DNA from: Myxococcales bacterium
GTDB taxonomy: Bacteria > Myxococcota_A > Polyangia > Polyangiales > Polyangiaceae
Assembly: GCA_025351875.1 (NCBI GenBank)
Contig: JANXVA010000649.1
Span: 1 to 34,225, forward strand
Length of the DNA stretch: 34,225 nt
Reading direction: 5' to 3'
Made by a program: the position numbers and the translations under genes. The notes beneath the pieces were generated by a model, which saw nothing but the letters and a program-made list of their open reading frames with translations, searched no databases and was not told where the DNA came from. Shown here piece by piece: positions 9,297 to 33,947 of this stretch (position 1 is its first letter; each line of letters starts with the position of its first letter).

Positions 9297-9465
9297 GGGC
9301 GCATCTTCCTCCAACTGTCGCGGAGCCCGTCCAGCAAAAGACGATGGAGGCGTGAACGGATTGCGCTCGCCGAGTGGGCGGCCGGGTCACGAGGTGCGAC
9401 ATGAAGCAGGTCTGCCACGCCGAGCTGCGTGACATGAGGACGCTGCCACGGCAGAGTGACCGCCG

Positions 9466-14307: not shown

Positions 14308-14319
14308 TCCGCTCTGCGA

Positions 14320-15063: not shown

Positions 15064-15134
15064 CGCGCTCCCTTATGACAGAGCGCACGGGTCCCGTCGA
15101 GATTCTGTCGAACGACCCGTCGCAGCAGAACTTG

Positions 15135-16422: not shown

Positions 16423-17526
16423 TCAGCCTGGCCGCGACGCGCTCGTGAGGGCCGCATGCACGAGGGATTGAAAGTGATGAACGCCGTTCTCGCGCAGCGT
16501 GGAGAACCGTCCGCGTTCGTAGGCGCCTGATGCGAGGCCCTTCTGAACGGCCTCGCAGATCGAGATGTCCTCGAGCTGGATGCCGTGGCTGAACGCCATC
16601 GTGCGCGCGATGGCCTCCGCGGCTCCAGGGGCGTCCGGGTCCTTCTGGAACCACACGAAGATCGTCACGCATCGATCGGGGCCGCGAGGGAGGACCACGT
16701 TCAGGGACATGTTGTCGGGATAGATGTTGAGCATCCATCCAGGGAAGACCCAGTAGTAGAGGGCCGAGAGCTCACCCTCGTTCGGGACGTACTGCCTACC
16801 GACCGCTCCGTCCGCGACGGGCCGGATGGGCGCAATCTGAGAGGAGTAATTGGAGAACGTCTCCACCCGGTAGTTCCCGTAGTCGAGCTCTCGGAAGAGC
16901 CCCGGGTGGACGGTCGGCAGGTGGTAGCCCTCGAGGAAGTTGTCGACGTACGTTTTCCAGTTGCACGCGATCTCGTACTCGCGCCGGGCGACGGGTCGCA
17001 TGGCCGCGAGGTCGTGGGCGGTGGTCTCGCTCGGGATGGCGCCGAGCGTAGTCAGTAGCGGAGCGGCGCCATCGTCGAGGCACGCGAACACGAGCGGTCC
17101 CCACTCCTCCACGCGAACGGAACGCAGTCCGTGGCACGTCGGATCGAAGCCCTCGACGGCGCCGAGCTCCGGCGTCTTCACGAGGCGCCCATCGAGCGCG
17201 TACGTCCAGCCGTGGTAGCGGCACGTCAGCGACTTGCGGGCACCCTTGCCGACGGCGACGGGGCCTGCGCGGTGGCGGCACACGTTGTAGAAGCCCCGCA
17301 GCGCGCCCGTCAGGTCGCGGGTGACGACGATCGGCGCGCCGGCGACCTCTGCCGTGAAGAAGGTCCCGGGCAGCGCGACGTCGACGGAGTTTCCGACGGG
17401 CTCCCAGGATCGCCGGAAGATCCGTGCGTTCTCTGCCGCGAGGATCGCCGCGTCGGTGTACGCGAACGCTGGCAACGTCGCCGCGCGGGCAAGCTCGCCC
17501 TCGAATGTGCCCAGCCGATGCGGCAT
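16423..17526 (-). CDS. Rieske non-haem iron oxygenase, alpha subunit (CntA/choline-monooxygenase type)
   Basis: 367 residues from the ATG at 17526. The Rieske [2Fe-2S] ligands are C83/H85 (CRHRAG) and C102/H105 (CRYHGW). The mononuclear iron site is the segment VDNFLEGYHLPTVH, with H202 and H207, and probably D320 (LEDISICEAV) as third ligand. The residue three before H202 is Glu (E199) where naphthalene dioxygenase has its bridging Asp; Glu at this place is known in carnitine oxygenase CntA. These enzymes hydroxylate or demethylate quaternary amines or aromatics using electrons from a separate reductase. No reductase or ferredoxin gene is in the window. The substrate is open; a quaternary amine is an inference from the CntA-like features. 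Confidence 0.9.
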   Translation of the reverse strand: MPHRLGTFEGELARAATLPAFAYTDAAILAAENARIFRRSWEPVGNSVDVALPGTFFTAEVAGAPIVVTRDLTGALRGFYNVCRHRAGPVAVGKGARKSLTCRYHGWTYALDGRLVKTPELGAVEGFDPTCHGLRSVRVEEWGPLVFACLDDGAAPLLTTLGAIPSETTAHDLAAMRPVARREYEIACNWKTYVDNFLEGYHLPTVHPGLFRELDYGNYRVETFSNYSSQIAPIRPVADGAVGRQYVPNEGELSALYYWVFPGWMLNIYPDNMSLNVVLPRGPDRCVTIFVWFQKDPDAPGAAEAIARTMAFSHGIQLEDISICEAVQKGLASGAYERGRFSTLRENGVHHFQSLVHAALTSASRPG

Positions 17527-17610
17527 GCGCGTGATCTAGCCGAATCGTGCGGACAAGCCGACACAATTGCCTGTTGCTTGCGGGCCCGCGCTGTTGTCCT
17601 GTTCGTTCTC

Positions 17611-18861
17611 GTGCATCGCGTCTACCTCTCCCCCGGCATGTTCGGCTTCGGACGACTCGCGACGTATGACTACTTCGCTCACGTCGAGCGGGCGCTCGTG
17701 AAGCGGTTCAGCGACGCTGGCAAGCGTCTCGAGGCTCACGTCGTGGACGTCTCGCCGACGGCGTCGATCCGGCGGCGGGCGGTCCGCCTCGCCGAGCTCG
17801 TCGCGAAGACGGCGGAGGATGGAGAGGGGACGATTCACCTCCTCGGCCACTCGACCGGCGGTCTGGATGCGCGCCTCGTTGCGTCGCCTTCGGCACGGCT
17901 TCCGACTGCGAAGGAGAACCTCTCGTGGGTCTCGCGGCTTCGCAGTGTGACGACGATGAGTACGCCCCACTACGGAACGCCGCTCGCGAGCTTCTTCGCC
18001 ACGGTGAGCGGCCAGCGGATGCTCTATGCGGTCAGCGCGCTCACGTTCATCGGGCTCTCGCTCGGAGCTCCTCCGCTCGCCGCCGCCAGCGCCCTCGTCG
18101 TCGCGATAGGGCGGCTCGATCGCACCCTCGGCGTCGAGCTCCGCCTCCTCGACCGCACGACGGATGCGCTCCTCAAGGCGCTCGAGCCGGCGACGAGCCT
18201 CGAGGTGCGCGGGTACCTCGATGCGATTCGCCGCGACCAAGGCGCCATGATCCAGCTCACGCCGGAGGCGATGGATCTCTTCCAGGCGGGAATCGAGGAC
18301 CGACCGGGCGTCGACTACCAATGCACGTGCGCGCAGGCGCCGCCGCCGACGCCGGGGACGCTGGCCCGGTCGCTGAGCGGTCCGTGGCGTGCGATCTCGT
18401 CGGCGATCTTCACGACGCTCTATGGCATCACCGCGCGCTACGACGAGCGCTATCCCTGCGCCGCGCCCGACAGCCCGCCGGAGGTCGAGGCGATGCTCAC
18501 GCGCGCTTTCGGTCGCATCCCTGGCGCGAGAGCGAACGACGGCGTCGTCCCGGTCCTCTCTCAGGTGTGGGGCCGGGTCGCGTGGGCGGGCTACGCCGAT
18601 CACCTCGACGTACTGGGCCATTTTCCAGGCGCGGCGCCGCCCCCGCGCGGCCTCTGGGCCTCCGTGTTCCGCGGGCGACCGAAGGCCGATGCGCCGCTCG
18701 AGGAGGGCGTCGTCGATGCGTCTGCCGGGGGCAGCGTGAACCCCGACCCGTCCGTCGCCACTCGTCACGTGGACTGGCTTCGTAGCGGCGCCGGGTTCAA
18801 CGAGCGCTCCTTTGCGTCGCTGATGGACGCCCTTGCCGCAGGCATGCTCGCGGCCTCGTGA
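17611..18861 (+). CDS. Alpha/beta-hydrolase lipase-like enzyme
   Basis: 416 residues from the GTG at 17611, which places the first strand at the N-terminus (MHRVYLSPGMFGFG). TTG at 17578 is an alternative, and neither has a clear ribosome site. The nucleophile elbow is GHSTGG with S81. Later ARANDGVVPV supplies a candidate acid (D310) and YADHLDVLGHF the candidate His (H331). This order matches bacterial true lipases and PGAP1-like esterases. A hydrophobic segment at about 130-170 could be a membrane-binding lid. There is no signal peptide, so it may be cytoplasmic. It is divergent from the Rieske gene with an 84-base gap. It may act on a lipid or ester; the substrate is unknown. Confidence 0.82.
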   Translation: MHRVYLSPGMFGFGRLATYDYFAHVERALVKRFSDAGKRLEAHVVDVSPTASIRRRAVRLAELVAKTAEDGEGTIHLLGHSTGGLDARLVASPSARLPTAKENLSWVSRLRSVTTMSTPHYGTPLASFFATVSGQRMLYAVSALTFIGLSLGAPPLAAASALVVAIGRLDRTLGVELRLLDRTTDALLKALEPATSLEVRGYLDAIRRDQGAMIQLTPEAMDLFQAGIEDRPGVDYQCTCAQAPPPTPGTLARSLSGPWRAISSAIFTTLYGITARYDERYPCAAPDSPPEVEAMLTRAFGRIPGARANDGVVPVLSQVWGRVAWAGYADHLDVLGHFPGAAPPPRGLWASVFRGRPKADAPLEEGVVDASAGGSVNPDPSVATRHVDWLRSGAGFNERSFASLMDALAAGMLAAS

Positions 18862-18892
18862 TAAGCTCGTAGCTTCTTACCGGGAGAACTCC

Positions 18893-20077
18893 ATGAATAC
18901 TCGTCGACGCTTGGCTCTGGTGATTGTTGCGCTTCCGCTCGCGTTCTACGGGTACGCGTGTTCGTCGAGCGACGACGCGACGGACAACCCCGCGGGTGAG
19001 GACGGCGGCAACGAGACGGGCACGAAGCCCGGCAACGACAGCAGCACGGAGAAGGACACCAGCACGACGGTGCCCGACAGCTCGATCAAGCCCGACGCGG
19101 CGGACGCAAGCGACGGCGCGGTCGCGCCCACGTGCATCGGCAACCCGCTCACCGCGGACGGCGGAAATCTCGACGGCGGCGTCACGCTCGATGGCGCGGT
19201 GACGAACCAGATCGTGACCGTGTTCAACGGCGACTTCCTCGACGGACCGCAGTGGTTCGACGCCGACGGCGGCTTCCTCGTGTACTCGGAGTACAACACC
19301 GCGACGCCGCAGCTGCTGCGCGTCGCGCCGGACGGCGGAAACAACGTCACGTTCCGCGCCTCCGGCTTCAGCACCGCGAACGGTCCGCTCGGAAACGCCG
19401 TTCGCAACGGCGTGCTCGTCACTGCGGTCGACGGCCAGAACGCGACGGGCAAGCCGCAGTTCTTCCTCTCGGCTTCGGACGGCGGCGACGCGGGGGCGAT
19501 CGCTCTCGGCGATGCGGGCGCAACGAGTCCGAACGACCTCGTCGTCGGCCCCGCCAACAACCTCTACTTCACCGACGGTCAGTACCAGAACACCGGCAAC
19601 GTCGGTGTCGCGGGCCTCTACCGGATCGCCGGCGACGGCGGCGTCTTCGCCGTACAGCAGAACTTCGGCCGCGCAAACGGCATCGCCATCACCGCCGATC
19701 TGTCGACGCTCTACGTCGGCGTCGGACCGCAGAACGGCGACCCCGATCCGAAGGCCGTTCTCCAGTACCCGGTCTCGGCGACGGGCGTCGTCGGCGCAGC
19801 CACGTCCTTCCTGACGGCGTTGGATCTCGTCGACGTCCCTGACGGCATGGCCGTCGACGTCGGCGGCAACCTCTGGGTCGCCGAGGCCGCGACGAGCAAC
19901 GGCGCGAGCGGTCGCGTCGAGGTGTTCAGCGCCGCGAAGAAGAAGCTCGGCACGATCCCGTTCGCAACGCAGCGCCCCACCGGTGTCGCGTTCGGCGGCG
20001 CCGACAACAAGACGCTCTTCATCACCACCGAGACGGGCGTGTTCACGTACGTCAGCCGCTGCGCCGGCGTGCGCTGA
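18893..20077 (+). CDS. SMP-30/gluconolactonase-like beta-propeller lipoprotein
   Basis: 394 residues from the ATG at 18893, with GGGAG 6 bases upstream; the frame extends into the lipase gene but without a signal. The signal MNTRRRLALVIVALPLAFYGYAC ends in a lipobox (C23). A Gly/Asn/Asp/Ser-rich linker follows. The body has propeller repeats of the SMP-30/gluconolactonase type (PNDLVVGPANNLYFTD, GRANGIAITADLSTLYVGV, PDGMAVDVGGNLWVAE, RPTGVAFGGADNKTLFI). Family members hydrolyse lactones or serve as binding platforms; the metal ligands are not all identifiable here. Predicted outer-envelope location. Confidence 0.86.
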   Translation: MNTRRRLALVIVALPLAFYGYACSSSDDATDNPAGEDGGNETGTKPGNDSSTEKDTSTTVPDSSIKPDAADASDGAVAPTCIGNPLTADGGNLDGGVTLDGAVTNQIVTVFNGDFLDGPQWFDADGGFLVYSEYNTATPQLLRVAPDGGNNVTFRASGFSTANGPLGNAVRNGVLVTAVDGQNATGKPQFFLSASDGGDAGAIALGDAGATSPNDLVVGPANNLYFTDGQYQNTGNVGVAGLYRIAGDGGVFAVQQNFGRANGIAITADLSTLYVGVGPQNGDPDPKAVLQYPVSATGVVGAATSFLTALDLVDVPDGMAVDVGGNLWVAEAATSNGASGRVEVFSAAKKKLGTIPFATQRPTGVAFGGADNKTLFITTETGVFTYVSRCAGVR

Positions 20078-20484: not shown

Positions 20485-22167
20485 ATGAGGACGCATCTGA
20501 CCGAACCGCTGCGCGAGGTGGTCGAGGTAGAGGTTCGCAGAGCCTCGTCGGTCGCCCCCGCGCGCGCGCGCGCGACCGAGAGCGGACCGACCAGCGCCGT
20601 ACGCCGTTCTTCGGCGCGCGCTGCGTGGGTCGGGCTCGGCGCGGTGGGTGCCCTCGCGGTGATGGTGTTCTGGGCGTTCGACGCCCTGCCGTTCCAGGAT
20701 CTGCCGGCGCACGCGGGCTTGATCGCGATGCGCCATCGCTTCACCGAAGCGAGCTTCGAATCGCGGTTCTTCGTCCTCGCCCCGCACATCGGTCCGTACT
20801 CGTTGTTCCGTTTCCTCGGCGAAGTTTTCGTGCGCTTCGTCGGTCCACTCGGTGCCGTTCGCGCGCTCGCGACGCTCCCGGTGATCGCGACGCCGCTCGC
20901 GATGCTCTACGCACGCCGCCGCCTCCACGGGGATCGGTCGCCGCTCTATGGCTACCTCGGCATCACGCTCTCGTTCGGCTTCATGACGCTCATGGGGTTC
21001 GCCAGCTACCTCCTCGGCGTGGCCGTCATGCTCGTCGGTCTCGTGATGTGGCTCGAGCTCCTCGTCGCCGCCGACGACGCCGCTCCCGATCTGCGCAGGC
21101 GTGAGCTCGGCATGGCGCTCTTCGCGCCGCTCATCTTCGTCGCACACGGGCACGCCTTCGCGCTCTTTCTGCTATGCGCCGGCGTCAGCGCAGCGTGCGT
21201 CGGTCTCCGCGCGGCGCGGCTCCTCCGCTTCCGCGCGCTCGTCCCGGCCCTCCTCCTCGCGGGGTGGGTCGCGTGGGTCGAGCGGGGGTCGACGACGCCG
21301 TCGGGCTCGGTGCCGGTCGTGCCGCCGCTCGTCCCGATCTTCCAGAGCCCCGCTGCGAAGTTCGAGCTGCTCGTCACGCCGACGCTCATGACCCGTAGCG
21401 GGATCGATTTTTTCGCCGGCGTCGCGCTCTGGCTCTTCGCGATCACGTGCACCGTCTACACCGTTCGCTCGCTCCTCACCGGATCGCGGCGCAACCTCAC
21501 CCCCGAGCAGCGGCACGGGCGTGCCCTGTACGCCTCCGCGGCGGCGCTCTTCGTGCTCTTCCTCGTGCTCCCGCACGCGATCGGCTGGTTCGGCTTCGTC
21601 GACGGTCGCCTCCTGCCGCTCGTGCTCATGCTCGCCCTGCTGGGCGTGCGTCGCGATGCGCTGCCTCGTCCGCTCGTGCTCGCGGCCGACATCGGCGTGC
21701 CGGCCTCCGCGGCCGCGCTGGCGACCGTGGCGCTCGTGGCCTCGTTCTTCTTCCAGCGAGAAGCGCACGGCTACCGCGAGGTCCTCGGCCGCATCCCGGC
21801 GCAGGCTACGCTGCTCAACCTACCGCTGGACCCGAACAGCGACATCTTCACGGGTCACCCGTTCGTCCACTACGACAAGCTCACGCTCGCCGAGCGGCCG
21901 GTCGTCGTGAGTGACGTCTGGTTCCACCAAGGATCCGCGCTCTACCCGACGAACGCGAACCCCGCGCTCCGTCTGCCGTCGAGCTACAGCGAGAGCGACC
22001 TCAAGTTCATCGACTGGCCTGCCTATCACCTCGAGGACTGGGAGTTCGTGCTCATCCGCACCCGCCCCACCGCCTCGCAGCCCTACACGCCCAACGACCT
22101 CACCCTCGAGGAGCACGTCGGCGGCTGGTGGCTCTTCAAGCGCGTCGCGGGCTCCGCATCCCGCTGA
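20485..22167 (+). CDS. Polytopic GT-C-like membrane protein, copy A
   Basis: 560 residues. A basic cytoplasmic N-terminus precedes about ten hydrophobic segments (such as VGLGAVGALAVMVFWAF and LMGFASYLLGVAVMLVGLVM), then a soluble C-terminal part of about 130 residues. The first extracytoplasmic loop has FQDLPAH with D72, the position where GT-C glycosyltransferases keep a catalytic acidic residue. The protein at 24058 has the same arrangement (YQDLPNH) and a similar soluble tail, so the two look like diverged paralogs. GT-C enzymes transfer sugars from polyprenyl-phosphate donors outside the inner membrane; donor and acceptor here are unknown. The ATG at 20485 has a weak ribosome site. The next gene follows after 8 bases. 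Confidence 0.8.
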   Translation: MRTHLTEPLREVVEVEVRRASSVAPARARATESGPTSAVRRSSARAAWVGLGAVGALAVMVFWAFDALPFQDLPAHAGLIAMRHRFTEASFESRFFVLAPHIGPYSLFRFLGEVFVRFVGPLGAVRALATLPVIATPLAMLYARRRLHGDRSPLYGYLGITLSFGFMTLMGFASYLLGVAVMLVGLVMWLELLVAADDAAPDLRRRELGMALFAPLIFVAHGHAFALFLLCAGVSAACVGLRAARLLRFRALVPALLLAGWVAWVERGSTTPSGSVPVVPPLVPIFQSPAAKFELLVTPTLMTRSGIDFFAGVALWLFAITCTVYTVRSLLTGSRRNLTPEQRHGRALYASAAALFVLFLVLPHAIGWFGFVDGRLLPLVLMLALLGVRRDALPRPLVLAADIGVPASAAALATVALVASFFFQREAHGYREVLGRIPAQATLLNLPLDPNSDIFTGHPFVHYDKLTLAERPVVVSDVWFHQGSALYPTNANPALRLPSSYSESDLKFIDWPAYHLEDWEFVLIRTRPTASQPYTPNDLTLEEHVGGWWLFKRVAGSASR

Positions 22168-22175
22168 GGGCGAGC

Positions 22176-24020
22176 GTGATCCGGATCCGCGCGTGGGTCC
22201 CTGCGAGCTTCTGGGCTGCCGCGCTCGTGCAGACGGTCTTCCTCGTCGCGCTCGCCGCGAGCGACGGCTACGACGTGGCGCGTAGCGGCGAGACGGTCCG
22301 CGTGGTGCTCACCTATGCCACGGTCTTCGCGCTCTTCGGCATCATCCATTCGACGATCACGAGCCCGAGGTGGTCGCAGCGGCTCGCGTCGTTCGTCTTC
22401 TTCTGCTTCGTGGCGGTGAACTTCGCGCGCTTCGAGACGGCGGGATCCTTCGACTACGGCTTCGCCCACGAGAACGCGCGAGAGCTGCTCACCCCGCTCG
22501 GCCGCACCATCGTCCTCGCGAACATGCGCGCGTGGGAGGTGGCGTGTCTCTTCGTTCTGCCGCTCGTCATCGGCCTCGCGATCGTCCGCCTGTCGGCTCT
22601 CCGCGGCCAGGGGCCGATCTCTCGCTCCCGCGCGGGGGTCGCGCTGTCGTGCTTCGCGTTTCTCGTCGGTCTGCCGCTCGCGCGCGTGAGCACTCATGAG
22701 TCACTCACGGGCTTCGTCGTGTCGGCGCTGCGCTTCCACGCCGAGTCGCGTGCTGCTGCGGCGATCATCAAAGGCGCACCGTTCCCATTCGTGCGCGCGT
22801 CGTCCCCTTCGCCCGGGGCTCGCGCCCTCGCCGGCGAGGACGCCCCGCGTCCTCACGTGATCCTCCTGTTCATGGAGTCGTGGAGCGCCGCCTACTCGGA
22901 CAGGTCGACCCCCGACGGTCACAAGATCACGCCTGTCTTCGACGCGCGACGGCGTGAGGGGCTCACGTACGACCATTTCTACGGCAACTCCGTCCAGAGC
23001 AGTCGAGGCCACTTCTCCACGCTCTGCTCGCTCATTCCGATGTTTCGCGGCAAGGAGTTCGTCGACCTGCCGGACGTGCGCCTCCATTGCCTCCCGAGCG
23101 TGCTCGGCGAGGTGGGCTACCGAACGCTCTTCTACTCGGCGACGGACGAGCCCGAGTTCGATCAGGCCGACAGGTTCTTCAAGCGCATCGGCTTCGCGGA
23201 CGTGCGCTGGGCGGAGGGCCGCAACGAGAAGGCCGACCCGGCGATGTGGGGGACCGGCGTCCAGGATGACGTCTTCTACGCGCGGTTCTTCGCGGCCCTC
23301 GACGAGAAGCTCACGCGGGAGCCGGGGGCGCCGATCCTCGCCGTAGCGGCGAACACCTCGCATCACTATCCGTTCAGTCACGACCCGAAACATGTCGCCC
23401 AGCCCGGGTACCCGACGAAGTACGGCCGTAACTTCGTCGCTTCGCTGCGCACGGCGGACGCTCGACTCGCGACGTTCTTCGACGAGCTCGAGAAGCGGCC
23501 GGCATTCCGCGACTCGATCGTCGTCCTGGTCGGCGACCACAGCTTCCCGGCCGACGAGCACGGAATTCACTTCAACGGGCTCGGCTCCTACGAGGAGGCC
23601 TTCCACACGGGCTTCGCGCTGCGCTGGAAGGATCATGTCCCGTCGCGCGTCGTCACGGATCAGGCGGCGTCACAGCTCGATCTCGCGCCCACCATCCTCG
23701 ATCTCCTCCAGCTACGGACGACGACCCACTTCACCGGGAGGTCGCTCTTCGCGGACGACAGCGACGTCCCGCCGGTGCCGCTCGTCCAGCCCTACGACGG
23801 CGTGCGCCTCGCCGCGGTCAAATGGCCGCTCAAGCTCGTTCGGCATGAATCGGCCGAGCAAGAGCACCTCTACGACCTCGCGAAGGACCCCGACGAGGAG
23901 CACGACCGGATCGCCGATCCGCAGCTCGCCGCGCCGCTCGCCGCGCTCCGCGAGACCCTCGTCCGGATCCACGCGAGCGAGCCAATCCTTCGGCAAAATA
24001 GGGTCTGGCCACCTCCGTAG
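22176..24020 (+). CDS. LtaS/MdoB-type membrane phosphotransferase (sulfatase fold)
   Basis: 614 residues from the GTG at 22176, 8 bases after the previous stop. The N-terminal third has about five transmembrane helices (ASFWAAALVQTVFLVALAA first). The extracytoplasmic alkaline-phosphatase-fold domain starts at PHVILLFMESWSAAY. Metal and catalytic residues visible: E234 (MESW), nucleophile candidate S276 (QSSRGH) and D454/H455 (VGDHSF). A GIHFNGLGSYEEAFH segment follows, as in the family. LtaS/MdoB-type enzymes move glycerol-phosphate or phosphoethanolamine groups onto envelope glycans. No CXPXR is present, so it is not a true sulfatase. It sits between the two GT-C-like paralogs and probably decorates their product. 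A Ser rather than Thr nucleophile would be a variation. Confidence 0.88.
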   Translation: MIRIRAWVPASFWAAALVQTVFLVALAASDGYDVARSGETVRVVLTYATVFALFGIIHSTITSPRWSQRLASFVFFCFVAVNFARFETAGSFDYGFAHENARELLTPLGRTIVLANMRAWEVACLFVLPLVIGLAIVRLSALRGQGPISRSRAGVALSCFAFLVGLPLARVSTHESLTGFVVSALRFHAESRAAAAIIKGAPFPFVRASSPSPGARALAGEDAPRPHVILLFMESWSAAYSDRSTPDGHKITPVFDARRREGLTYDHFYGNSVQSSRGHFSTLCSLIPMFRGKEFVDLPDVRLHCLPSVLGEVGYRTLFYSATDEPEFDQADRFFKRIGFADVRWAEGRNEKADPAMWGTGVQDDVFYARFFAALDEKLTREPGAPILAVAANTSHHYPFSHDPKHVAQPGYPTKYGRNFVASLRTADARLATFFDELEKRPAFRDSIVVLVGDHSFPADEHGIHFNGLGSYEEAFHTGFALRWKDHVPSRVVTDQAASQLDLAPTILDLLQLRTTTHFTGRSLFADDSDVPPVPLVQPYDGVRLAAVKWPLKLVRHESAEQEHLYDLAKDPDEEHDRIADPQLAAPLAALRETLVRIHASEPILRQNRVWPPP

Positions 24021-24057: not shown

Positions 24058-25698
24058 ATGCCGGTGACCGACGCGAACACCTCTGTCGAGCCCCCCGAGC
24101 CCGTGCCGGGCGCGCAGCGAGGCCTGAGCAGGCTCACCGACGGCCAGCTCGCCCTCGTCGCCTCCGGCGTGCTGCTCGTCCTGGGCGCATGGCCGCTCGC
24201 GCTCACCGACATCCCGCCGTACCAGGACTTGCCGAATCACCTCGCCACGGTGGTCGTCATCGAGAACGCAGCTCGCTATCCCGAGTTCGTCTTCAACGGG
24301 TTCTTCAAGACGAACGCCGCGTTCTTCGTCTGGCTCGTCTTCGTCGGGAAGCTGACCGGCCTCCACGTCGCCGCGCGCCTCTTTGCGTTGCTCGTCCTCG
24401 GCGCGAACGCCTTCGTATTCCCGCGCTTCGTGCTGGCCTTCACGGGCAGTCGGAAGCGCATGGTCGTGGCCAGTCTGCTCATGTGGCCGATGATCCACAA
24501 CTGGTTCGTCTCGACCGGCATGCTCGACTTCGCGCTGGCGATCCCGCTCTCGCTCGCGATGCTCGTCGCGGTCGAACGCCAGCGGCGTACACCGACCGTC
24601 GCCAACGGCTTGCTCGTCTCTGCGCTGGGGGCGCTGACCTGGTACGCGCACGTGTTTCCGCTGCTCGTCGTGCACATGCTGCTGGGGATCGATGCGATCG
24701 TGCGGGCCTTCCGGAAGGAGGCCATCACGACGCGTGCCGTCGTCCTGCCGATCCTCCCCGTGACCTTGCTCGTGCTCTCTTCGCTCTACAGCCAGCTGCT
24801 CGACAAGGTCGGCCCGATGAGCGGGTCGGTCGACTACACCACGATGCTGCCGGTGTGGGAGCTCGCGTACAACGCGTGGGCGGAGTGGATGTACGGGTTC
24901 TCGAAGCTCTCCGTGACGAGCATCGTCCCGTGTCTCGTGCTCGTCTGGATCGGCGCGTCCCGGCGCAGGGAGTCACCTCCGTTCTTCTCGAAGTACGCGG
25001 TGCTCTCGCTGACGCTGCTCTACTGCTTCTCGCCCTACATCGTGACCAACTGGTTCCACGTGAACTCGCGGCTCATCCCGTACATCTGGATGGGCCTCTT
25101 GCTTCGCGTCCCGGAGACACTGCCGCGCAAGCTCGTCGGCCTGCTCGGTCTCTCCGCGGTGCTCTACAGCGCGGGCATGGGCGCGGACTTCGTTCGACTC
25201 GATCGCGAGCGGCACGAGTTCACTGCGGGCATCCCGTTCGTGCCCGACGGCGCTCGGCTCTTGCCCCTCATCTTCCGGCACAAGGGGACGAGCGACAATA
25301 CGCGTAGCCTGCTCCACTACTGGGGCTACTACGTCACGGAGAAGCACACGTCCGCGCCGCTCCTCTTCGCGCACTCGCACTCGTTTCCGGTCATCTACAG
25401 CAAGCCGCCGCCGGTCCGGTTCAACCACCTCGTGCTCGAGGGCTTCGCGGCGAACGCGACCGACCCGACGAGCCTCTGCGTGCGCCTCCTCAAGGGCAAC
25501 GTCGTGGAGAACGACTGCGACGCGGCGTTCCGCGCGATGTGGGGCGGCTTCTGGGCCGAGGCCACGCCGCTCTATGACCACGTTCTCGTGTGGGACGGCA
25601 CCCCGGAGGCGCGAGCCCTGATCCCGAGCGACTACATCCCCGTCTTCGAGCGCGATCGCCTCACCATCTACGAACGCATCCCGACCGCCGCCAGGTAG
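24058..25698 (+). CDS. Polytopic GT-C-like membrane protein, copy B
   Basis: 546 residues from the ATG at 24058; a TTG three bases earlier is also possible. About ten transmembrane segments, starting LALVASGVLLVLGAWPLAL. The first outer loop carries YQDLPNH with D57, matching FQDLPAH of the protein at 20485. The C-terminal 140 residues are soluble (HKGTSDNTRSLLHYWGYY, AHSHSFPVIYS). The layout matches GT-C glycosyltransferases; the specificity is not readable. It is 37 bases after the LtaS-like gene in the same direction, so the three probably form an operon. It ends at an inverted-repeat element facing the convergent transporter gene. Confidence 0.8.
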   Translation: MPVTDANTSVEPPEPVPGAQRGLSRLTDGQLALVASGVLLVLGAWPLALTDIPPYQDLPNHLATVVVIENAARYPEFVFNGFFKTNAAFFVWLVFVGKLTGLHVAARLFALLVLGANAFVFPRFVLAFTGSRKRMVVASLLMWPMIHNWFVSTGMLDFALAIPLSLAMLVAVERQRRTPTVANGLLVSALGALTWYAHVFPLLVVHMLLGIDAIVRAFRKEAITTRAVVLPILPVTLLVLSSLYSQLLDKVGPMSGSVDYTTMLPVWELAYNAWAEWMYGFSKLSVTSIVPCLVLVWIGASRRRESPPFFSKYAVLSLTLLYCFSPYIVTNWFHVNSRLIPYIWMGLLLRVPETLPRKLVGLLGLSAVLYSAGMGADFVRLDRERHEFTAGIPFVPDGARLLPLIFRHKGTSDNTRSLLHYWGYYVTEKHTSAPLLFAHSHSFPVIYSKPPPVRFNHLVLEGFAANATDPTSLCVRLLKGNVVENDCDAAFRAMWGGFWAEATPLYDHVLVWDGTPEARALIPSDYIPVFERDRLTIYERIPTAAR

Positions 25699-25791: not shown

Positions 25792-28446
25792 CTACGCCTT
25801 CGTGGGCGCGGGCTTTGGCTTGATCACGTGGAGGAGGGCAGGGAGGACGATGATGGCGCAGAGGAGCGTCGTGATTTCGCCGCACACCGCGAGGCGCCCA
25901 AACGACTCGAGGGCCTGGTTGTCCGCGACCAGGAGCGAGCCGTAGCCGACCGTCGTAGTGAAGCTGCACAGCATGACCGCGCCGCCGACGCGCTTCACAG
26001 CGCCGCTGATGTCGCCGCCGAGGAGACGCGAGCGATCGAAGATGTTGAACGGATACTCGGTGCCGATGCCGAACGTGATGGGCAAGGCCACGAAGTTGAG
26101 AAAATTCAGGCGGAGGTCGGCCAGCGCCGCGATCCCGACCATCCAGATGACGCCCATCAAGAGCGCCGCGAGAACTGCGGCGGCGCCGCGTTTGCTGTGG
26201 GTGGCGATGAGCACGACGACGATGACGGCGCCGAACGAGGCTCCGGTCGCCAGCGGCGCGTCGCGTGTCATCGAGCGAATGAGCTCCGCGTAGCGCGTCG
26301 AACCGCTCGCGGTGTGTACGAGCGTCCCGTCCGGCAAGATGATGTTGTCCGTCGTCTTGGCGATGCGGAGGACCGTGCGTCCGTTGCTGAAGCCGATGTC
26401 GTGCCGGAACTGCACGTACATGAGCGTGCCAATCGTCCCGTTGATCTCCTCGAACTTGCGCCGCAGGATGAGTGGGAGGTCCTTGCCGCCGAGCGCCGCG
26501 AGCGTCTCCGGGGGCCTCAGCTCCTCGAGCTTCGCGCGCTCCTCGGGCTCCATGTCGAAGAGGACGCGCTCGGTGAGGCGGCCCCGGATGCGGTCGAGGA
26601 CCTCGAGCTTCTGCGCCTGCAACCTGGCGTCTCCGGGGAGGAGGTTCTCGACGGTGGTGACGTCGACGATGAGCTTCCCCTCGGGATCCTTCGCGTCGTT
26701 TGCGAAGATCTGGGCCTTGACCGCAGAGGTCTGGCCGGGGTGGTCGACGAGGATGCGCGCGCCCGCGATGTTCAGCTTTCGGCCGAAGATCTTGTCGGCG
26801 TTCGAGGACCACTCGTTCGCGCCGCCGGTCTGGCGCGTCCCCTTCGAGCCGAGTTTGTCGAAGTGATACTCCCACGGGTCCCTCACGTAGCCCGGGATCT
26901 TGTACGAGAGCGCGAGGGTGACGAGGGTGGCCACCGCGAGAATCGGCCAGCGATAGCGCTGGGTGAAGCGCGCGAGGAAGCCAGTGACCCAGCCCTGGCT
27001 GTCGTCCTCGCGGATCTTCGGCAGCGGCTCGCGCATCCACGTGGGGAGCCTCGCCTGCGCCCGCTCGATGAGCGTGATGAGCGCCGGGACGAGGGGGATC
27101 ATCCAGAGCCAGACGAACAGCATACCGACGAAGCCGATCGTTCCGAACTGGCTGAAGCCGCGCGAGCGCGTGATCGTGAGCGAGCCGTAGGCGATCGCCG
27201 CGACGCTCGCGCCGAGCAGCTCGGCCCGCAGCGAGTTCCAGACGGCGTTGTGACGCGCCTCCTCCGGCTCCTGACCGCGCGCGCGGAACTCGCGGTAGCG
27301 GGAGAGGAGCACGATCGGATAGTTGATCCCGTTACCGAGGATGATCGCGCCGAGGAACGCGCCCGCGGTGTTGACGTAGCCGTACCTCCACATCGCGAAC
27401 GCGTACGCGGAGCCGACGCCGAGGAGGGCCGGCAAGGCGATCACGAAGATCGACCACGGCGAGCGGTAGTACCAGACGACGCCGGCGAGAATCAGGACGA
27501 GCGCGAGCGCCGAGGCCCAGACCGCCTCGCTGATGATCGACCGCTTCTCCTCGACCGCGTTCGGGATGTCTCCCGCGAGGCCGACCTTCATCTCGGGGTG
27601 GTAGCTCGAGGGGTTCTGGTCCTTGACGATCTGCTTCACGCGGTCGTGGAGGATGTCGCTCGAATGCTCGCCCGTTCCGGTCGTCAGCGTGATGATCCGG
27701 AGCGCGGCGAGCGTGCCGTCATCGGTCTCGAAGTAGCCGCGCGGGAAGTCGTCGTGCTTCGAGGCGTCCGCCTTCCAGCGCGAGCGGAACTCATCCATGC
27801 CGAGCGCGGACTTCTTCTCGGGGTTGACCGGCTTTCCGTCCTTACCGAGGGCCGGCGCGCCGGCATCGGGCGGCGCGCCGCCATCGACGCCCTGCTTGGA
27901 TGCCGGCGGCGGATCGTCACCGATCAAGTCGTCGACCATGCCGCTCTTGATGGCGATCTGTCGGTCGAGCGTGCGGTCGGCGTCCTCGAGATCCTTGAGG
28001 TCCGCGTAGAGCCACTTGTTGTCTTCGTAGAACTTGTGGACGTCCTTCGTCCCGTGCTCGATGTAGCTGATGACCCTCGGTCCGCAGGCTTCGGTGCACG
28101 CGGCGTTCTCACCGCACTGCTTCACGCAGGTCTCGTGCTCGGCCGCCATCGAGGCGAGCCTCGTGTAGACGTCGTCGACGTATCTCTCGTTCGCGGTCCG
28201 ATCCGGCGACTTGACGACGACGATGAGGCTCGCGCCTCCGCCGACGCGACCGAGCTGGCGCTCGTAGGCCTGATAGCCCGGGGTATCCTTCGGGACGAGG
28301 TCGAGAAAATCGGTGTGGGCCTCGAGGTGCGAGCCGTACCACCAGCAAGCGCCACCCATGAGGAGCGCCACCGCGAGAACGAGCCAAGGCCGGCGGTTCG
28401 CGAGGTTGACGATGGCGGTGAAGGCAGCTCGGACACGCTCAGACAT
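25792..28446 (-). CDS. RND/MMPL-family membrane transporter
   Basis: 884 residues from the ATG at 28446, which overlaps the upstream stop by 8 bases (ATGTCTGA). The architecture is classic RND: TM1 (RPWLVLAVALLMGGACWWYG), a large outer loop, a TM2-6 block with GNGINYPIVLLSRYR, a second loop after residue ~540, then a second block with FGIGTEYPFNIFDRSR. It is half the length of a tripartite RND pump doubled up with no partner genes nearby, closer to MMPL/HpnN-type lipid exporters. The first outer loop has a four-Cys cluster (C107, C111, C117, C121) with spacing CX3CX5CX3C. Coupled to the phosphotransferase gene, it may export or flip the lipid product; this is an inference. Confidence 0.9.
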   Translation of the reverse strand: MSERVRAAFTAIVNLANRRPWLVLAVALLMGGACWWYGSHLEAHTDFLDLVPKDTPGYQAYERQLGRVGGGASLIVVVKSPDRTANERYVDDVYTRLASMAAEHETCVKQCGENAACTEACGPRVISYIEHGTKDVHKFYEDNKWLYADLKDLEDADRTLDRQIAIKSGMVDDLIGDDPPPASKQGVDGGAPPDAGAPALGKDGKPVNPEKKSALGMDEFRSRWKADASKHDDFPRGYFETDDGTLAALRIITLTTGTGEHSSDILHDRVKQIVKDQNPSSYHPEMKVGLAGDIPNAVEEKRSIISEAVWASALALVLILAGVVWYYRSPWSIFVIALPALLGVGSAYAFAMWRYGYVNTAGAFLGAIILGNGINYPIVLLSRYREFRARGQEPEEARHNAVWNSLRAELLGASVAAIAYGSLTITRSRGFSQFGTIGFVGMLFVWLWMIPLVPALITLIERAQARLPTWMREPLPKIREDDSQGWVTGFLARFTQRYRWPILAVATLVTLALSYKIPGYVRDPWEYHFDKLGSKGTRQTGGANEWSSNADKIFGRKLNIAGARILVDHPGQTSAVKAQIFANDAKDPEGKLIVDVTTVENLLPGDARLQAQKLEVLDRIRGRLTERVLFDMEPEERAKLEELRPPETLAALGGKDLPLILRRKFEEINGTIGTLMYVQFRHDIGFSNGRTVLRIAKTTDNIILPDGTLVHTASGSTRYAELIRSMTRDAPLATGASFGAVIVVVLIATHSKRGAAAVLAALLMGVIWMVGIAALADLRLNFLNFVALPITFGIGTEYPFNIFDRSRLLGGDISGAVKRVGGAVMLCSFTTTVGYGSLLVADNQALESFGRLAVCGEITTLLCAIIVLPALLHVIKPKPAPTKA

Positions 28447-30922
28447 GGGGCAGGGCCTCATCGAGAAGGGAACGGGGCGCCCGCACGATCGCGTAGGCGA
28501 CGGCGACCATGAGGAGCGCAAGAAGGACGTGAGGGAGCTCGCTCGTCACCCAGACGGGTGTCCAGAAGGACCCTCGTGAGGCCTCGAGCGAGCCGACGAG
28601 CACCGTCGCGCGGAGTGCGTAGAGCGCGACGAGACTGCGGAGAGCGAGCAGGCGCATGGATCGAGGGAGCGGAAGGAGGACTCCGAACGAGAGAAAGCCT
28701 CTGACCACCGCATATTTGTACACCAAGGCGAGGACGATGCGGGGCATCGAGACGCCGGGATCGCGAAAGGTTCCGGCCGCGAAGTCGAGGTGCATGAAGT
28801 GGAGCCCCATCTGGATGCCCGCGAGCTGGACGAACCCCCACGCAAAGATGAAGGACACGATGCTGAGTGTCAGGACTCGCGACGATGTCTCGCTGGCGGG
28901 AGTGCCGCGGTCTGGTTCGGCGAGCTGCTTGCCGACGGCGTCACCGAATGCGACGGCCACCATGTAGCTGGCGAGGAAGAAGGGGACCTCGAGGTCGCGC
29001 GAGACCCACGCATACGAGCCGAAGCCGAGCAGCTCAGCCAGTGCGCGCTCTCTTCGGTAGAGCGCGACTGCAGCGAGCACGGCGACCACGCCCCAGCCGA
29101 CGAGGCAGACCCACGCGGGCGCGCTCCGGCGCATGAGGAGGGACAGCGTCGCGACCGACACGCCGGCCACGGTCCGGAAGAGCGGAGACTCGAGGCGCAG
29201 GTGGCGGACTACGGCGAACACGAGCAGGCTGCCGAGCGCGATCGCAAGCAGGAGACGCGGCGCCGCGAGGAGCCACGCGGGCGAGAAGTTCCCGGCGTCG
29301 ACGCACACCACCGAGACGCCGAGGAGCAGCGGCCCGTAGAGCGCGATGCGTGACGCCGTCGAGCTCGACCACGCCCACGGGAACCCCTTGCTGGTCGGGA
29401 CGCCGCGCGTCAGCGCGAAGCCGACGAGGACGGCCGACAGGAGGTACGCCTCGGTGAGGGCCGAGTGTGTCTCGGTCAGGACGAGCACGCCGGGGAAGAG
29501 CACCGGTGCGAGCACCGAGGCGCGCTCGAGGATCCTGCTCGTGGGGATCGGCACGAGGATCCAGAGCAGGAGGGGTGCGTTGAAGAGCACGTAGAGCGTG
29601 ACGCGCGCCGGTGTGAGCCACGCGCCGGGCAGCTTCTCGAGAGAGGCGGTCACGAACACGCTCGTGACGAGCGCGACGCCGAACGCGATGCCTCCTCCGA
29701 GGACCTGTCGGGCTGGCATCGTGCGGTAGAAGAGGACGAACCCGAGCAGCGCAGTGAGCGCGGTCGCGAAGAGCGAGAGCGTGAAGCCGCTTCGCTGCGA
29801 CGCCGCCTCGGCCTCGCTGGTGCGAGTGTCGAGCGCGCGAGCGATCGGCAACGCGGCGGCAACGCGACTCGGCGCTCCGCGACTCGCTTCACACGCCGGC
29901 GCGAGGCGAGGGTCGTTGGCGGGCTCGCCGAGCGTACGCGCGAGGTCCTGGACGTTCCTGCATGCCATCGCCGCGCGCGTGTCGTCGCTCACATCGAGCC
30001 AGGAGACGAGCGGCTGTCCTCGCGAGTGACGCGGCGTCGCGATGCCGAGGAGCGCCGTCATCGTCGGCGCGAGATCGATGTCGTCGACGCGCGGAAGGGA
30101 GCGAGGCCCGGCGATGATGCCCGGCCCATACGCGAGCATGAAGGTGCGCCGCTGCTCCTCCGTGTCCGAGCCGTGGATGCCGGACATCGTCGCACCGTGG
30201 TCTCCGAGCACGATCACCGTCGTGTCGTGCGCGAAGCGGCCGAGAAAGGTCGCGAGGAGCGCGTCGAAGCTCGCGATGTAGGTCTCGTAGACCGGGCTCG
30301 CGATCCCGTACCCGTGCGCCATGTGGTCGGGCGTCGCGAAATGATAGACCGCGACGTCGACGGTCGGCTGGATGGCCTGAAGCGCGGCTGCCTCGAGGAA
30401 GCGCGCCTCGTCGTCGCCGACGCCGACCGCGAGCTGATGCGGATCCTCGGCGCGCGTGACGTCCCAGGCGCTCGGGTAGAGACCCGTCCATACAGGGTCA
30501 CCCACGGTCCCGGTCCGTAGCCGCGCGGCGCGAGCGATCGTGAAGAGATCCTCGAAGAGGGTCGGGAGGCTCGTCTCGTTACGGATGGCCTGATCGATCC
30601 CCGCATGGCCTCCGGTGCCGAAGACGAGCGCGGCCGAGGCCGTCATCGAGATGGGCTCTGCCCACAGCTCGGAGCCGGCGCTCGACCGGAAGCGCTCGGC
30701 GAGCTGCGGCATCCGCCGGCCGTCGGTCGCGACGTCGAAGCGGAGGCCGTCGAGCAGGACGAAGGCCAGCCGTTGGGTGAGTGGCGGACCGAGCGCCGCG
30801 CGCGCAGGGAGCCCGGCAGAGGGGGCCTCGGGGGTAACGACCCGCATGACCATCGCCGCGATGCCAACCACCAGGACGACCGCCAGGAGAAGCACAAGGG
30901 AGCCGAGGCGGCTCGAACGCAT
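28439..30922 (-). CDS. GPI ethanolamine-phosphate-transferase-like polytopic protein (PIG-N/O/G type)
   Basis: 827 residues. TM1 is at about 8-28. An alkaline-phosphatase-fold domain (about 50-340) faces outward: LLDGLRFD (D58), nucleophile candidate T94 (EPISMTAS), a TG-x4-ID block, HFATPDHMAHGYG (D199, H203), and LGDHGATMSGIHG (D241, H242, H250). A RVDDIDLAPTMTALLG segment and RHSRGQPL follow. The C-terminal ~440 residues are packed with about a dozen transmembrane helices. The order of motifs and the large polytopic tail match eukaryotic GPI ethanolamine-phosphate transferases rather than bacterial EptA or LtaS, which carry their helices at the N-terminus. Those enzymes move phosphoethanolamine from a phospholipid onto mannose of a GPI lipid. 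The acceptor here is unknown. The gene is coupled to the RND gene. Confidence 0.85.
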   Translation of the reverse strand: MRSSRLGSLVLLLAVVLVVGIAAMVMRVVTPEAPSAGLPARAALGPPLTQRLAFVLLDGLRFDVATDGRRMPQLAERFRSSAGSELWAEPISMTASAALVFGTGGHAGIDQAIRNETSLPTLFEDLFTIARAARLRTGTVGDPVWTGLYPSAWDVTRAEDPHQLAVGVGDDEARFLEAAALQAIQPTVDVAVYHFATPDHMAHGYGIASPVYETYIASFDALLATFLGRFAHDTTVIVLGDHGATMSGIHGSDTEEQRRTFMLAYGPGIIAGPRSLPRVDDIDLAPTMTALLGIATPRHSRGQPLVSWLDVSDDTRAAMACRNVQDLARTLGEPANDPRLAPACEASRGAPSRVAAALPIARALDTRTSEAEAASQRSGFTLSLFATALTALLGFVLFYRTMPARQVLGGGIAFGVALVTSVFVTASLEKLPGAWLTPARVTLYVLFNAPLLLWILVPIPTSRILERASVLAPVLFPGVLVLTETHSALTEAYLLSAVLVGFALTRGVPTSKGFPWAWSSSTASRIALYGPLLLGVSVVCVDAGNFSPAWLLAAPRLLLAIALGSLLVFAVVRHLRLESPLFRTVAGVSVATLSLLMRRSAPAWVCLVGWGVVAVLAAVALYRRERALAELLGFGSYAWVSRDLEVPFFLASYMVAVAFGDAVGKQLAEPDRGTPASETSSRVLTLSIVSFIFAWGFVQLAGIQMGLHFMHLDFAAGTFRDPGVSMPRIVLALVYKYAVVRGFLSFGVLLPLPRSMRLLALRSLVALYALRATVLVGSLEASRGSFWTPVWVTSELPHVLLALLMVAVAYAIVRAPRSLLDEALPHV

Positions 30923-31065: not shown

Positions 31066-32223
31066 TTGGCGCAATCGACACGGAGCGGAGAGGCTAAAAA
31101 GGCGGGCCTTCGCGTCGTTCACGTCGTCGTCGCCGGGGATATCGGCGGCGCGGAGCGGCTGCTCGTCGACCTCGCCTCGCGGCCCGAGGAGAGCGGCGCC
31201 GAGCACGTCGTAGCGCTCTTCACTCCGAACCGCGCGCTCGCCGCGATGTTCGAGCGCGCCGGCCTCACGATCCGCGACCGCGGCCCGGTGCTGGAGAACC
31301 CCGTCGCGTACCTCTGGCGCTCCTTGGGCCCGAGCGACGTCGCGTGGCTTGCGGGTGTCCTGCGGGAGGAGCGCGCCGACGTGGCTCACCTCCATACGTT
31401 CGCCTCGCACGTGCTGGGGACTCGCGCGGCGCGGCGGGCGGGCGTCCCGACGCTTCGCACCGAGCACCACGTCCAGTACTTCGTCGACCCGAGCACGAAG
31501 TCCTTCACGCTCTGGTCGCTGGCTCGTGTCGACCGGAGCGTGGCGATCAGCCAGTACGTGGCGGACTGGGTGCGGCGGGCGGTGCCGGCGGTCGCCGCCA
31601 AGCAGCGCGTGGTGCTGAACGGCGTCGACGCCGACTACTTCTCTCCGCGACCTCGGAGCGCCGAGGCCGCCGCGCGCCCGTTCACGTTCGTGGTCGTGTG
31701 CCGGCTCGAGCCGTGGAAGGGCATCGACCTCGTCGTCGAGGCCGCGGCGATGGCGTCGGGCTTCGACGTCGAGATCGTCGGCGACGGCAGCGAGAAGCCG
31801 CGCCTCGCCCGCATGATCCAGGAGAAGGGGCTAGGCGACCGCGTGCGCGTCCTCGGGTACCTCGCCGATCCGCGTTCGTCCATCGCCGATGCCGACGCGT
31901 TCGTGAGCGCTTCTCGTGATGAGCCGCTCGGCCTCGCCGTGCTCGAAGCTCTCGCGATGGAGCGCCCGGTGGTCGGCTTCGCCGGCGGCGGCATCCCGGA
32001 GATCGTCCAGGACGGCAGGACGGGCTGGCTCGTCCACGAGCGGACCGCCGAGCTCCTCTCGCGAACCATGGCCGACGCAGCGAGCGACCGCGAGCGCGCC
32101 CGACGCTTCGGCATCGCTGGCCGGGCGTTCGTCGACGGTCACTGCCGGATCGAATCGATGTGCCGAGGCTACCGGGCCGTCTACGAGGAGCTCGCGCAGG
32201 CCAAGGCGCCGCGGGAGCCATGA
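31066..32223 (+). CDS. GT4-family (GT-B fold) glycosyltransferase
   Basis: 385 residues. The only in-frame start ahead of the first strand is the TTG at 31066; no ATG or GTG is available and no ribosome site precedes it, which fits a leaderless message. The N-domain starts RVVHVVVAGDIGGAERLL. The C-domain has the nucleotide-sugar site: R213 and K218 (VCRLEPWKG) and the E-x7-E motif E286/E294 (EPLGLAVLE), then GGGIPEIV. There are no membrane helices, so it acts at the cytoplasmic face on an NDP-sugar, probably extending a lipid-linked or cell-surface glycan. The ATGA overlap with the next gene indicates coupling. Confidence 0.9.
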   Translation: MAQSTRSGEAKKAGLRVVHVVVAGDIGGAERLLVDLASRPEESGAEHVVALFTPNRALAAMFERAGLTIRDRGPVLENPVAYLWRSLGPSDVAWLAGVLREERADVAHLHTFASHVLGTRAARRAGVPTLRTEHHVQYFVDPSTKSFTLWSLARVDRSVAISQYVADWVRRAVPAVAAKQRVVLNGVDADYFSPRPRSAEAAARPFTFVVVCRLEPWKGIDLVVEAAAMASGFDVEIVGDGSEKPRLARMIQEKGLGDRVRVLGYLADPRSSIADADAFVSASRDEPLGLAVLEALAMERPVVGFAGGGIPEIVQDGRTGWLVHERTAELLSRTMADAASDRERARRFGIAGRAFVDGHCRIESMCRGYRAVYEELAQAKAPREP

Positions 32224-33947
32224 AGGCGCGGCTCCTCACGCTCGCTCGTGAGCTGCGCTCGTCGCCCCTTGCATGGATTCTGTGCGCGGCGTTCGTCGTG
32301 CACGTCATCGGCTTGGCGTGGGGGCTGCCCGCCGCCGACGCGTGGGAGGACGACGGCATCGCGCCGCGCGATTTCCTCGTGGGCGCGTACGAGACCTACC
32401 TCCCGGGGCACTACTTCACCTATCCACCGGTGCACTTGCTCGGCCTGAGCTTGCTCACGTCGCCCGTCTGGGGTCTCGCGCTCGCACGAGCGCCGTCACT
32501 CGCCCAGTCGGACGTGATTTCCACGATGATCCAGGTGCCGACGATGACCGCATTGACGCTGGTGGCGCGGCTCGTGAGCCAGCTCATGGCGCTCGGCATC
32601 ATCTATTTCCTCGCGAAGCTCGCGGAGGAGGTCTGGAGCAAGCGCGCATCGCTGTTCGTCGCGCTCGTGATCGCGATCAACGCGCCGCTCACCTACTACG
32701 CGCACACCAGCAACCTCGATGTCCCCTACATGTTCTGGGCATGCTTCGCGCTGCTCGAGACGGCGCGAACGATCGTACGTCGCGAGCCGCGGCGCCTGCG
32801 TCGCGTGTTTCTCTATGCCGCCCTGGCCGTGGGCACCAAGGACCAAGCCTACGCGATCTTCCTCGCCGGCTTCCCGGTCGCGATCGCCGCGTGGCTCCTG
32901 CTCGACCGCGAGGTGAAGGCCCGTCGCGGAGAGATCGCGCGGCAGCTCGTGATCGGCCTCGCGATCTCCGGCGTGCTCTTCCTGCTCGTGAGCGGCGCGA
33001 TCACGAATCCGAGCGGCTTCCGCGCGCGCATCCACTTCCTCCTCGGGCCTGCGAGCCAGAACCACGCGTATTACGCCTCGAGCTGGGGGGGGCGACTCAA
33101 CATCCTGCGCGACATCGCCGTCGGTTGGGACCGCTTCTATCCGTATCCGTTCGCGGCCGCCGCGCTCGCGGGGCTCTGGGCGCACGTGGCGGGCGCAAGG
33201 CGTGCAGGCACGCCCGAGCGACTGGTGGCCGGGCTCGTTCCGCTGCTCGGCGGGCTCTCGTTCATCCTCTTCTTCAACATGACGGCGCGGCGCACGGAGC
33301 ACCGCTTCGCGATGCCCGAGATGCTCCTGTTCGGCGTCTACGCAGGCGTCGCCTTCGATCGCCTCACGGAGCTCTGCCGCGGGGTGCTGGCGCGTCGAGC
33401 GGCGCTCGCGTCGATGACCGGGCTGCTCGGGTGGGGCCTCTTCGAGTGCGCAGCCGTCGACGCGAACATGCTCCTCGACCCGCGTTACGACACCGAGGCG
33501 TTCCTGGCCGCGGAGGTCCACGAGGGCGACGTCGTCGAGGCGTACGGCGCGAACGCCTACCTCCCGCGTTTCCCGAAGGCGGCGCACGCCACTCGTGTCG
33601 ATCTCTCGTCCCTCTCGACGCGGAACCCTCTTCCCGACGTCCAGGAGATCCAGGCTCCGTTCAACGAGATCGAGTCGCGCAAGCCGCGCTTCATCATCGT
33701 CACTGACGCCTGGGTGTGGCGCTACTTCGCCACGGGTGCGTGGGGAGGCAGAGTGGTCCCGCCCGAGCAGGCCGAGCGCGAGCGCGACGAGCCGAGCCGT
33801 GCGTACTTCCATCGGCTGCACACAGACCAACTCGAGTATCGCCTCGTGCACGTTTCGAAGTTCTCGAGCGGCGTGTGGCCGGCGCGGCCGATTCACCAGA
33901 GCCTCGCGAAGGAGATCCGCATCTTCGAGCGGAAAACGGGCTTGTAG
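32220..33947 (+). CDS. PMT/ArnT-like GT-C glycosyltransferase
   Basis: 575 residues from the ATG at 32220, which overlaps the GT4 stop (ATGA). TM1 is LAWILCAAFVVHVIGLAWGL. The first outer loop carries acidic residues (AWEDDGIAPRDF, D44/D45) and FTYPPVHLLG, then LTYYAHTSNLDVPYMFW, patterns typical of the GT39/PMT-ArnT-like GT-C group. About ten further transmembrane helices and a soluble C-terminal region of about 120 residues follow. Such enzymes use polyprenyl-phosphate sugars and act outside the inner membrane. Coupling to a cytoplasmic GT4 enzyme suggests successive steps of one glycan. The acceptor is not known. Confidence 0.88.
   Translation: MKARLLTLARELRSSPLAWILCAAFVVHVIGLAWGLPAADAWEDDGIAPRDFLVGAYETYLPGHYFTYPPVHLLGLSLLTSPVWGLALARAPSLAQSDVISTMIQVPTMTALTLVARLVSQLMALGIIYFLAKLAEEVWSKRASLFVALVIAINAPLTYYAHTSNLDVPYMFWACFALLETARTIVRREPRRLRRVFLYAALAVGTKDQAYAIFLAGFPVAIAAWLLLDREVKARRGEIARQLVIGLAISGVLFLLVSGAITNPSGFRARIHFLLGPASQNHAYYASSWGGRLNILRDIAVGWDRFYPYPFAAAALAGLWAHVAGARRAGTPERLVAGLVPLLGGLSFILFFNMTARRTEHRFAMPEMLLFGVYAGVAFDRLTELCRGVLARRAALASMTGLLGWGLFECAAVDANMLLDPRYDTEAFLAAEVHEGDVVEAYGANAYLPRFPKAAHATRVDLSSLSTRNPLPDVQEIQAPFNEIESRKPRFIIVTDAWVWRYFATGAWGGRVVPPEQAERERDEPSRAYFHRLHTDQLEYRLVHVSKFSSGVWPARPIHQSLAKEIRIFERKTGL

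Follow-up and report, generated by a model that had tools for sequence, protein, structure and literature searches.

A bacterial protein family of PIG-like architecture with an NPP-type active site, some members of which are encoded beside glycosyltransferase and RND genes in the Polyangiaceae

The 34,225 nt contig JANXVA010000649.1, from a Myxococcales bacterium of the Polyangiaceae (assembly GCA_025351875.1) and hereafter termed the window, contains a gene for a membrane protein that recalls the eukaryotic PIG-N, PIG-O and PIG-G proteins, flanked by genes likely to be involved in glycosylation and lipid export. The relevant features are as follows:

25792..28446, (-) strand: gene for an HpnN/MMPL-type RND protein of 884 aa, a probable lipid exporter
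28439..30922, (-) strand: gene for the putative PIG-like membrane phosphotransferase, 827 aa, ATG start
30836..30919, (-) strand: N-terminal membrane helix, residues 2-29, placed by AlphaFold2 and hydropathy
29993..30787, (-) strand: catalytic domain, residues 46-310, delimited by Pfam, invariance, the Xac NPP alignment and Foldseek; key residues D58, T94, N115, D199, H203, D241, H242 and H250
28481..29791, (-) strand: C-terminal membrane domain, residues 378-814, about 14 helices, placed by AlphaFold2 and hydropathy
31066..32223, (+) strand: gene for a GT4 glycosyltransferase, TTG start as called, a divergent neighbour
32220..33947, (+) strand: gene for a GT-C-like multi-helix protein (PMT_2 at 24.7 bits, below the 26.1 cut-off)

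The ATG of the RND gene lies inside the end of the PIG-like gene, the two overlapping by 8 bp (ATGTCTGA), such that they are probably co-translated; the RND protein is matched by the HpnN and BstA NCBIfam models, in both cases below their cut-offs. On the opposite side, 143 bp separate the GT4 gene from the PIG-like start codon, and the GT4 stop is overlapped by 4 bp by the GT-C-like gene, the product of which is a possible partner of the PIG-like system; no relative of it was found near other PIG-like copies among the loci searched. Elsewhere in the window, an LtaS/OpgB-like gene of the sulfatase family (22176-24020; Sulfatase 3.7e-28, with the LTA synthase model at 2.1e-14 and below its cut-off) is flanked by genes for multi-helix proteins at 20644-22167 and 24058-25698 (+), neither of which has a Pfam match above cut-off. 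Both of these flanking proteins are GT-C-like in look and carry the pattern D-x-x-P-[FY]-Q-D-L-P-x-H near the N-terminus.

The sequence-only reading had pointed to a series of motifs in the PIG-like protein, each of which was found with its residue numbers correct: DGLRFD (D58), SMTAS (T94), HFATPDHMAH (H194, D199 and H203) and GDHGATMSGIHG, which carries D241, H242 and H250. The eight key residues are invariant in 12 of 12 sequences, comprising the window protein and 11 relatives, and the motifs are therefore not the product of chance. An AlphaFold2 model of the 827 aa protein, built from 27 sequences (mean pLDDT 88.2, pTM 0.89), begins with one helix (residues 2-29), continues as a domain of mixed alpha/beta structure to about residue 310 and ends in approximately 14 helices at 378-814, which bears out the dozen C-terminal helices of the sequence-only reading; hydropathy agrees with the placement of these helices.

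Pfam assigns the catalytic domain most clearly to Phosphodiest (PF01663; 3.6e-12, 47 bits against a cut-off of 23), while the Sulfatase HMM is barely above its threshold (2.8e-6, 27.3 against 25 bits, residues 212-294) and the Metalloenzyme match stays under its own; no NCBIfam model comes near its cut-off. Across the family, the same three models match 25, 21 and 22 of the 27 members, respectively, at E <= 0.1. Sulfatases employ a formylglycine, derived from Cys or Ser, as their nucleophile, and a sulfatase identity was rejected because Thr94 stands at the formylglycine position.

The top PDB profile match is to the nucleotide pyrophosphatase/phosphodiesterase Xac NPP (2.4e-15), followed by ENPP7, PafA and ENPP6 (among the best 60 of 79 matches). 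Family residues D58, T94, N115 and D199 align with positions 15, 51, 72 and 171 of the 2gsn chain, and H203, D241, H242 and H250 with positions 175, 218, 219 and 324; adding 39 gives D54, T90, N111, D210, H214, D257, H258 and H363 in the full numbering of Xac NPP. This column-by-column correspondence indicates an active site of the NPP type, with a threonine nucleophile, two metals and an asparagine, and the PIG-like protein thus has the seven residues of a predicted two-metal and nucleophile site plus Asn115 as the predicted phosphate-binding residue. Similarly, the best 50 of 795 Foldseek matches in the PDB all belong to the alkaline phosphatase superfamily, being NPP, ENPPs, YejM/PbgA, sulfatases and a Vibrio protein, with a probability of 1.00 for the NPP, ENPP6, ENPP7 and YejM domains. 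Against Xac NPP (PDB 2gsn/7n1s), the target TM-score is 0.54-0.55. Nevertheless, only 9 residues separate D241 of the DHG motif from H250 of the HG motif in the PIG-like protein, compared with 106 in Xac NPP, and it was the absence of this long insert of about 100 residues that led to the rejection of NPP proper as an identity. The solved chains of Xac NPP, at about 380-430 residues, also leave no room for a membrane domain such as that of the PIG-like protein.

Between the two domains lie C321 and C344, kept in 95% and 91%, respectively, of the 22 full-length members. This conserved pair would fit a disulfide outside the cytoplasm, and hence an exported domain. The membrane domain itself is less conserved than the catalytic domain (mean majority-residue fraction of 0.44 against 0.60 in the 22 full-length members), yet includes 16 positions conserved at >= 90% in the same set. 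Its conserved residues include E429, R440, R642, E645, D713, K736, R771, S785, W787 and T788, the first seven of which are charged residues in or near helices, with R642, K736 and R771 being invariant across the full-length members. A large domain bearing these three invariant residues should exceed the needs of a simple hydrolase. When modelled alone, it is predicted with a pLDDT of 85.3 and a pTM of 0.87, and Foldseek found no match at E <= 0.001 either in the PDB or among viral models. It is consequently a predicted fold with no solved relative at the sensitivity of Foldseek; a GT-C type of membrane domain was rejected on the same lack of a PDB match at E <= 0.001, although PMC7801869 cites GT-C structures that have been deposited.

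PIG proteins have the catalytic domain first and the helix bundle after it, with an active site of the NPP type. GPI anchors are not known from bacteria. PMC7125958 describes PIG-N, PIG-O and PIG-G as multi-helix proteins that transfer ethanolamine phosphate and have lumenal catalytic sites, with phosphatidylethanolamine (PE) as the donor for PIG-N. The window protein has in common with these enzymes (Mcd4, Gpi13 and Gpi7) an N-terminal helix, a catalytic domain and a large C-terminal helix bundle, and in both cases a multi-helix protein would hold its catalytic site on the exported side, the exported side being probable rather than observed for the present family. By contrast, the window family is bacterial, lacks matches to PF04987 and PF19316 and, in some copies, has GT4 and RND genes as neighbours.

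The proposal that the protein is a homologue of the GPI ethanolamine-phosphate transferases fared less well. The best HMM match of the protein is the generic Phosphodiest, and its C-terminal part has no PigN or PIGO_PIGG match, largely the outcome that the sequence-only reading had named as a refutation; as no control matched, a distant or even whole-length homology to the PIG proteins may nonetheless exist. PF04987 (PigN) and PF19316 (PIGO_PIGG) match 0 of 27 family members at E <= 0.1, with no positive control matched. With no control genome matched, not one of the 20 genomes searched has PF19316 at E <= 10, while PF04987 was found in four of 20, as weak matches below cut-off in other genes and none on the PIG-like gene. 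Nor does a GPI phosphotransferase appear among the PDB matches listed (best 60 of 79 by profile, best 50 of 795 by Foldseek), and the titles and opening abstract lines listed from open-licence papers show no structure or bacterial homologue of these enzymes. GWT1 (PF06423), the acyltransferase family of the GPI pathway, is over its cut-off in 0 of 18 genomes, with two matches below cut-off (E 0.06-0.09) that have an inner stop; this result, from one marker and with no control genome matched, fits the earlier remark that a myxobacterium is not known to make GPI anchors. The Mas proteins of Myxococcus and the BindGPILA domain were considered and set aside. The GDxxW and GxHG blocks may resemble blocks of PIG-G and PIG-O, a likeness to be used only as a lead, as may the nucleophile block and GDHG motif that the sequence-only reading likened to human PIG-O; in Xac NPP, GEPVW corresponds in part to the GDxxW block.

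EptA and LtaS do a job of the kind proposed here, and, together with OpgB and PbgA (YejM), they carry their helices ahead of a terminal catalytic domain. They share a superfamily with the window protein, the YejM periplasmic domain ranking among the best fold matches with target TM-scores of up to 0.57, but the order is reversed in the AlphaFold2 model, where the catalytic domain precedes the helices, and an EptA/LtaS type was rejected on this basis. Of the original suggestion that the protein has the PIG layout and not that of EptA or LtaS, the layout and the Thr-nucleophile site of NPP/PIG type thus stand, whereas PIG family membership is unsupported. The protein is PIG-like in architecture, with an active site of the NPP/PIG type, and the present evidence does not justify filing it as a member of PIG-N, PIG-O or PIG-G. 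The family adds a bacterial form to an enzyme type already described, and gives a lead toward a possible glycolipid.

The relatives in the 27-row alignment, some rows of which are truncated by the ends of contigs, share 25-36% identity with the window protein. Their distribution is patchy: 25 of the 108 genomes belonging to the window's taxonomic family have a relative at E <= 1e-30, but 0 of the 11 same-genus genomes listed besides the window's own. In a phylum-wide sample, with at most two candidates scored per genome, relatives occur at E <= 1e-25 in 21 of 377 genomes, 11 inside the taxonomic family and 10 outside it, the latter matching the profile only in part and mostly in its N-terminal portion. 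For five diverged proteins of 752-1004 aa from other Myxococcota families, a profile alignment extends from column 22 to column 799 (729 aligned columns, E 2e-58, 19% identity). An initial search of genome contigs with the single protein gave no relative.

Diverged Phosphodiest proteins of 750-1000 aa occur in other Myxococcota families or orders (L065-L070 and L073; Phosphodiest falls below its cut-off in L067), and none of those scanned matches the PIG C-terminal families; the whole-length profile comparison covered five of these proteins. The window's own genome encodes a shorter paralogue of 516 aa (L071, G000:C673, 8963-10513(+)) that aligns with the PIG-like protein over its catalytic region at 27% identity. 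Another locus (L064, G149:C1) packs three PIG-like reading frames into about 11 kb, at 8244-10679(-), 15046-17349(+) and 17116-19413(-). One of them begins on the final base of a GT4 gene (13985-15046). The two diverged frames overlap convergently by 234 bp, and only one of these was retained by the gene caller.

A GT4 domain (PF13439 at E <= 1e-8, among the matches listed) lies within 1 kb of five of the 23 family copies in 20 genomes, namely those of G000, G033, G023, G283 and G284, the genomes G276, G297, G303, G304 and G326 being left out of the count although they hold family matches. The other 18 copies have no GT4 domain within 1 kb among the matches listed. The five linked copies require four changes on the family tree, and since those of G283 and G284 are near copies of one another, the linkage was counted as four. 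Genome-wide counts give an expectation of 0.064 and a Poisson chance of at least four of 7e-7, for a domain family that was selected because its recurrence had already been noticed. On the tree, the GT4 label is no more clustered than chance, with 156 of 500 shuffles as low, and a single old linkage that has been lost many times is a possible alternative explanation for the four places on the tree. Over the stretches aligned by BLAST, identity among the GT4 proteins adjoining the window, L058, L059 and G283 copies is 25-45%. Genes near other copies encode, among others, a kinase, a PAP2 phosphatase and an HrcA-like repressor; the L120 copy adjoins a nucleotidyl transferase and a GDP-mannose dehydratase-like gene, and the L057 copy a Wzx-like protein. 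One family copy (L135) has directly upstream, at a distance of 33 bp, a gene for an FGE-sulfatase-domain protein (7719-8738(+)), although the family nucleophile is Thr and not Cys.

Among the loci searched, a related RND gene is found only at the window and in G283 and G284. In G283, the order on one strand is GT4, RND, GT4 and PIG-like gene, after which come a GuaB1-like gene and an acyltransferase, and the same order was recovered in G284 by tblastn and gene calls; in both, an RND gene stands one gene from the second family copy. The G283 RND protein is 28% identical to that of the window over window residues 8-859 (E 3e-75). Five of the genomes each encode about four to seven MMPL proteins by hand count, and with so few per genome, the pairing with RND in two lineages among 23 copies looks unlikely to have arisen by chance, as a judgement rather than a computed value.

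The presence of GT4 and lipid-exporter genes alongside suggests that the PIG-like enzyme probably adds a phosphate-linked group to a glycolipid. The predicted fold, active-site residues, layout, family and gene associations are the computed results; the mechanism that we infer to accompany them would begin with a GT4 enzyme adding a sugar to a lipid on the cytoplasmic side, after which the lipid would be flipped. The PIG-like protein would be an inner-membrane enzyme of the alkaline phosphatase superfamily with its catalytic domain probably on the periplasmic side, where two metal ions would activate T94 for attack on a phospholipid, most likely PE, generating a T94-linked phosphoalcohol. This group would then be transferred, rather than released by hydrolysis, to a hydroxyl of the lipid-linked sugar held by the C-terminal membrane domain, and in the window the HpnN-like RND protein may carry the glycolipid product toward the outer membrane. 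PE appears the likeliest donor in view of the PIG analogy and of PS decarboxylase, a route to PE, which is encoded in 17 of 18 genomes (none in G034). We give about an even chance to this reading of a periplasmic phosphotransferase that modifies a GT4-made glycolipid exported by the RND protein, with PE-derived ethanolamine phosphate as the likeliest group. A bolder version, which we consider rather doubtful, is that the family is a whole-length bacterial branch of the GPI transferases, membrane domain and all, that the GT4, PIG-like and RND genes form a module for making and exporting a phosphoethanolamine glycolipid of GPI-like kind, and that the eukaryotic enzymes may descend from a bacterial family of this sort.

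The best solved relatives, Xac NPP (2.4e-15), ENPP7, PafA and ENPP6, are hydrolases with the same active site, as would be expected were water to accept the group from the T94 intermediate, making the protein a membrane-bound phosphodiesterase or phospholipase engaged in head-group trimming or phosphate scavenging. We nevertheless find this unlikely, as the approximately 14 C-terminal helices with invariant charged residues suggest the binding of an acceptor in the membrane, and glycosyltransferase neighbours recur. Still further down the scale is a generic nucleotide pyrophosphatase of NPP type with an incidental membrane domain: Pfam offers only Phosphodiest, Sulfatase and a Metalloenzyme match below cut-off, but DHG and HG lack the long stretch that separates them in NPP, conservation across the family takes in the membrane domain as well as the catalytic domain, and the profile alignment to the diverged relatives spans columns 22-799 (E 2e-58), making this reading extremely improbable.

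Were the protein a transferase, its active site would not reveal donor specificity, and it might use glycerol phosphate from phosphatidylglycerol or a sugar phosphate. The superfamily members LtaS and OpgB use phosphatidylglycerol, and an LtaS/OpgB-like gene is present in the window at 22176-24020; however, as 17 of 18 genomes have a route to PE and the PIG-like layout points to PE, the donor of PIG-N according to PMC7125958, such a donor seems quite unlikely. The acceptor, in turn, could be a polysaccharide or a protein instead of a glycolipid, in keeping with the polysaccharide genes adjoining the L057 and L120 copies, but the HpnN-like RND gene, which overlaps the PIG-like gene in the window and lies nearby in G283 and G284, makes this very unlikely.

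On the preferred reading, a phosphotransferase acting on a GT4-made glycolipid, myxobacterial envelopes would contain a possibly undescribed glycolipid route. As a bacterial family with the PIG architecture and a confidently predicted membrane domain, these proteins could be a tractable model for the way in which a lipid acceptor is held, and the existence of a PIG-like family in bacteria would bear on the origin of the GPI pathway.
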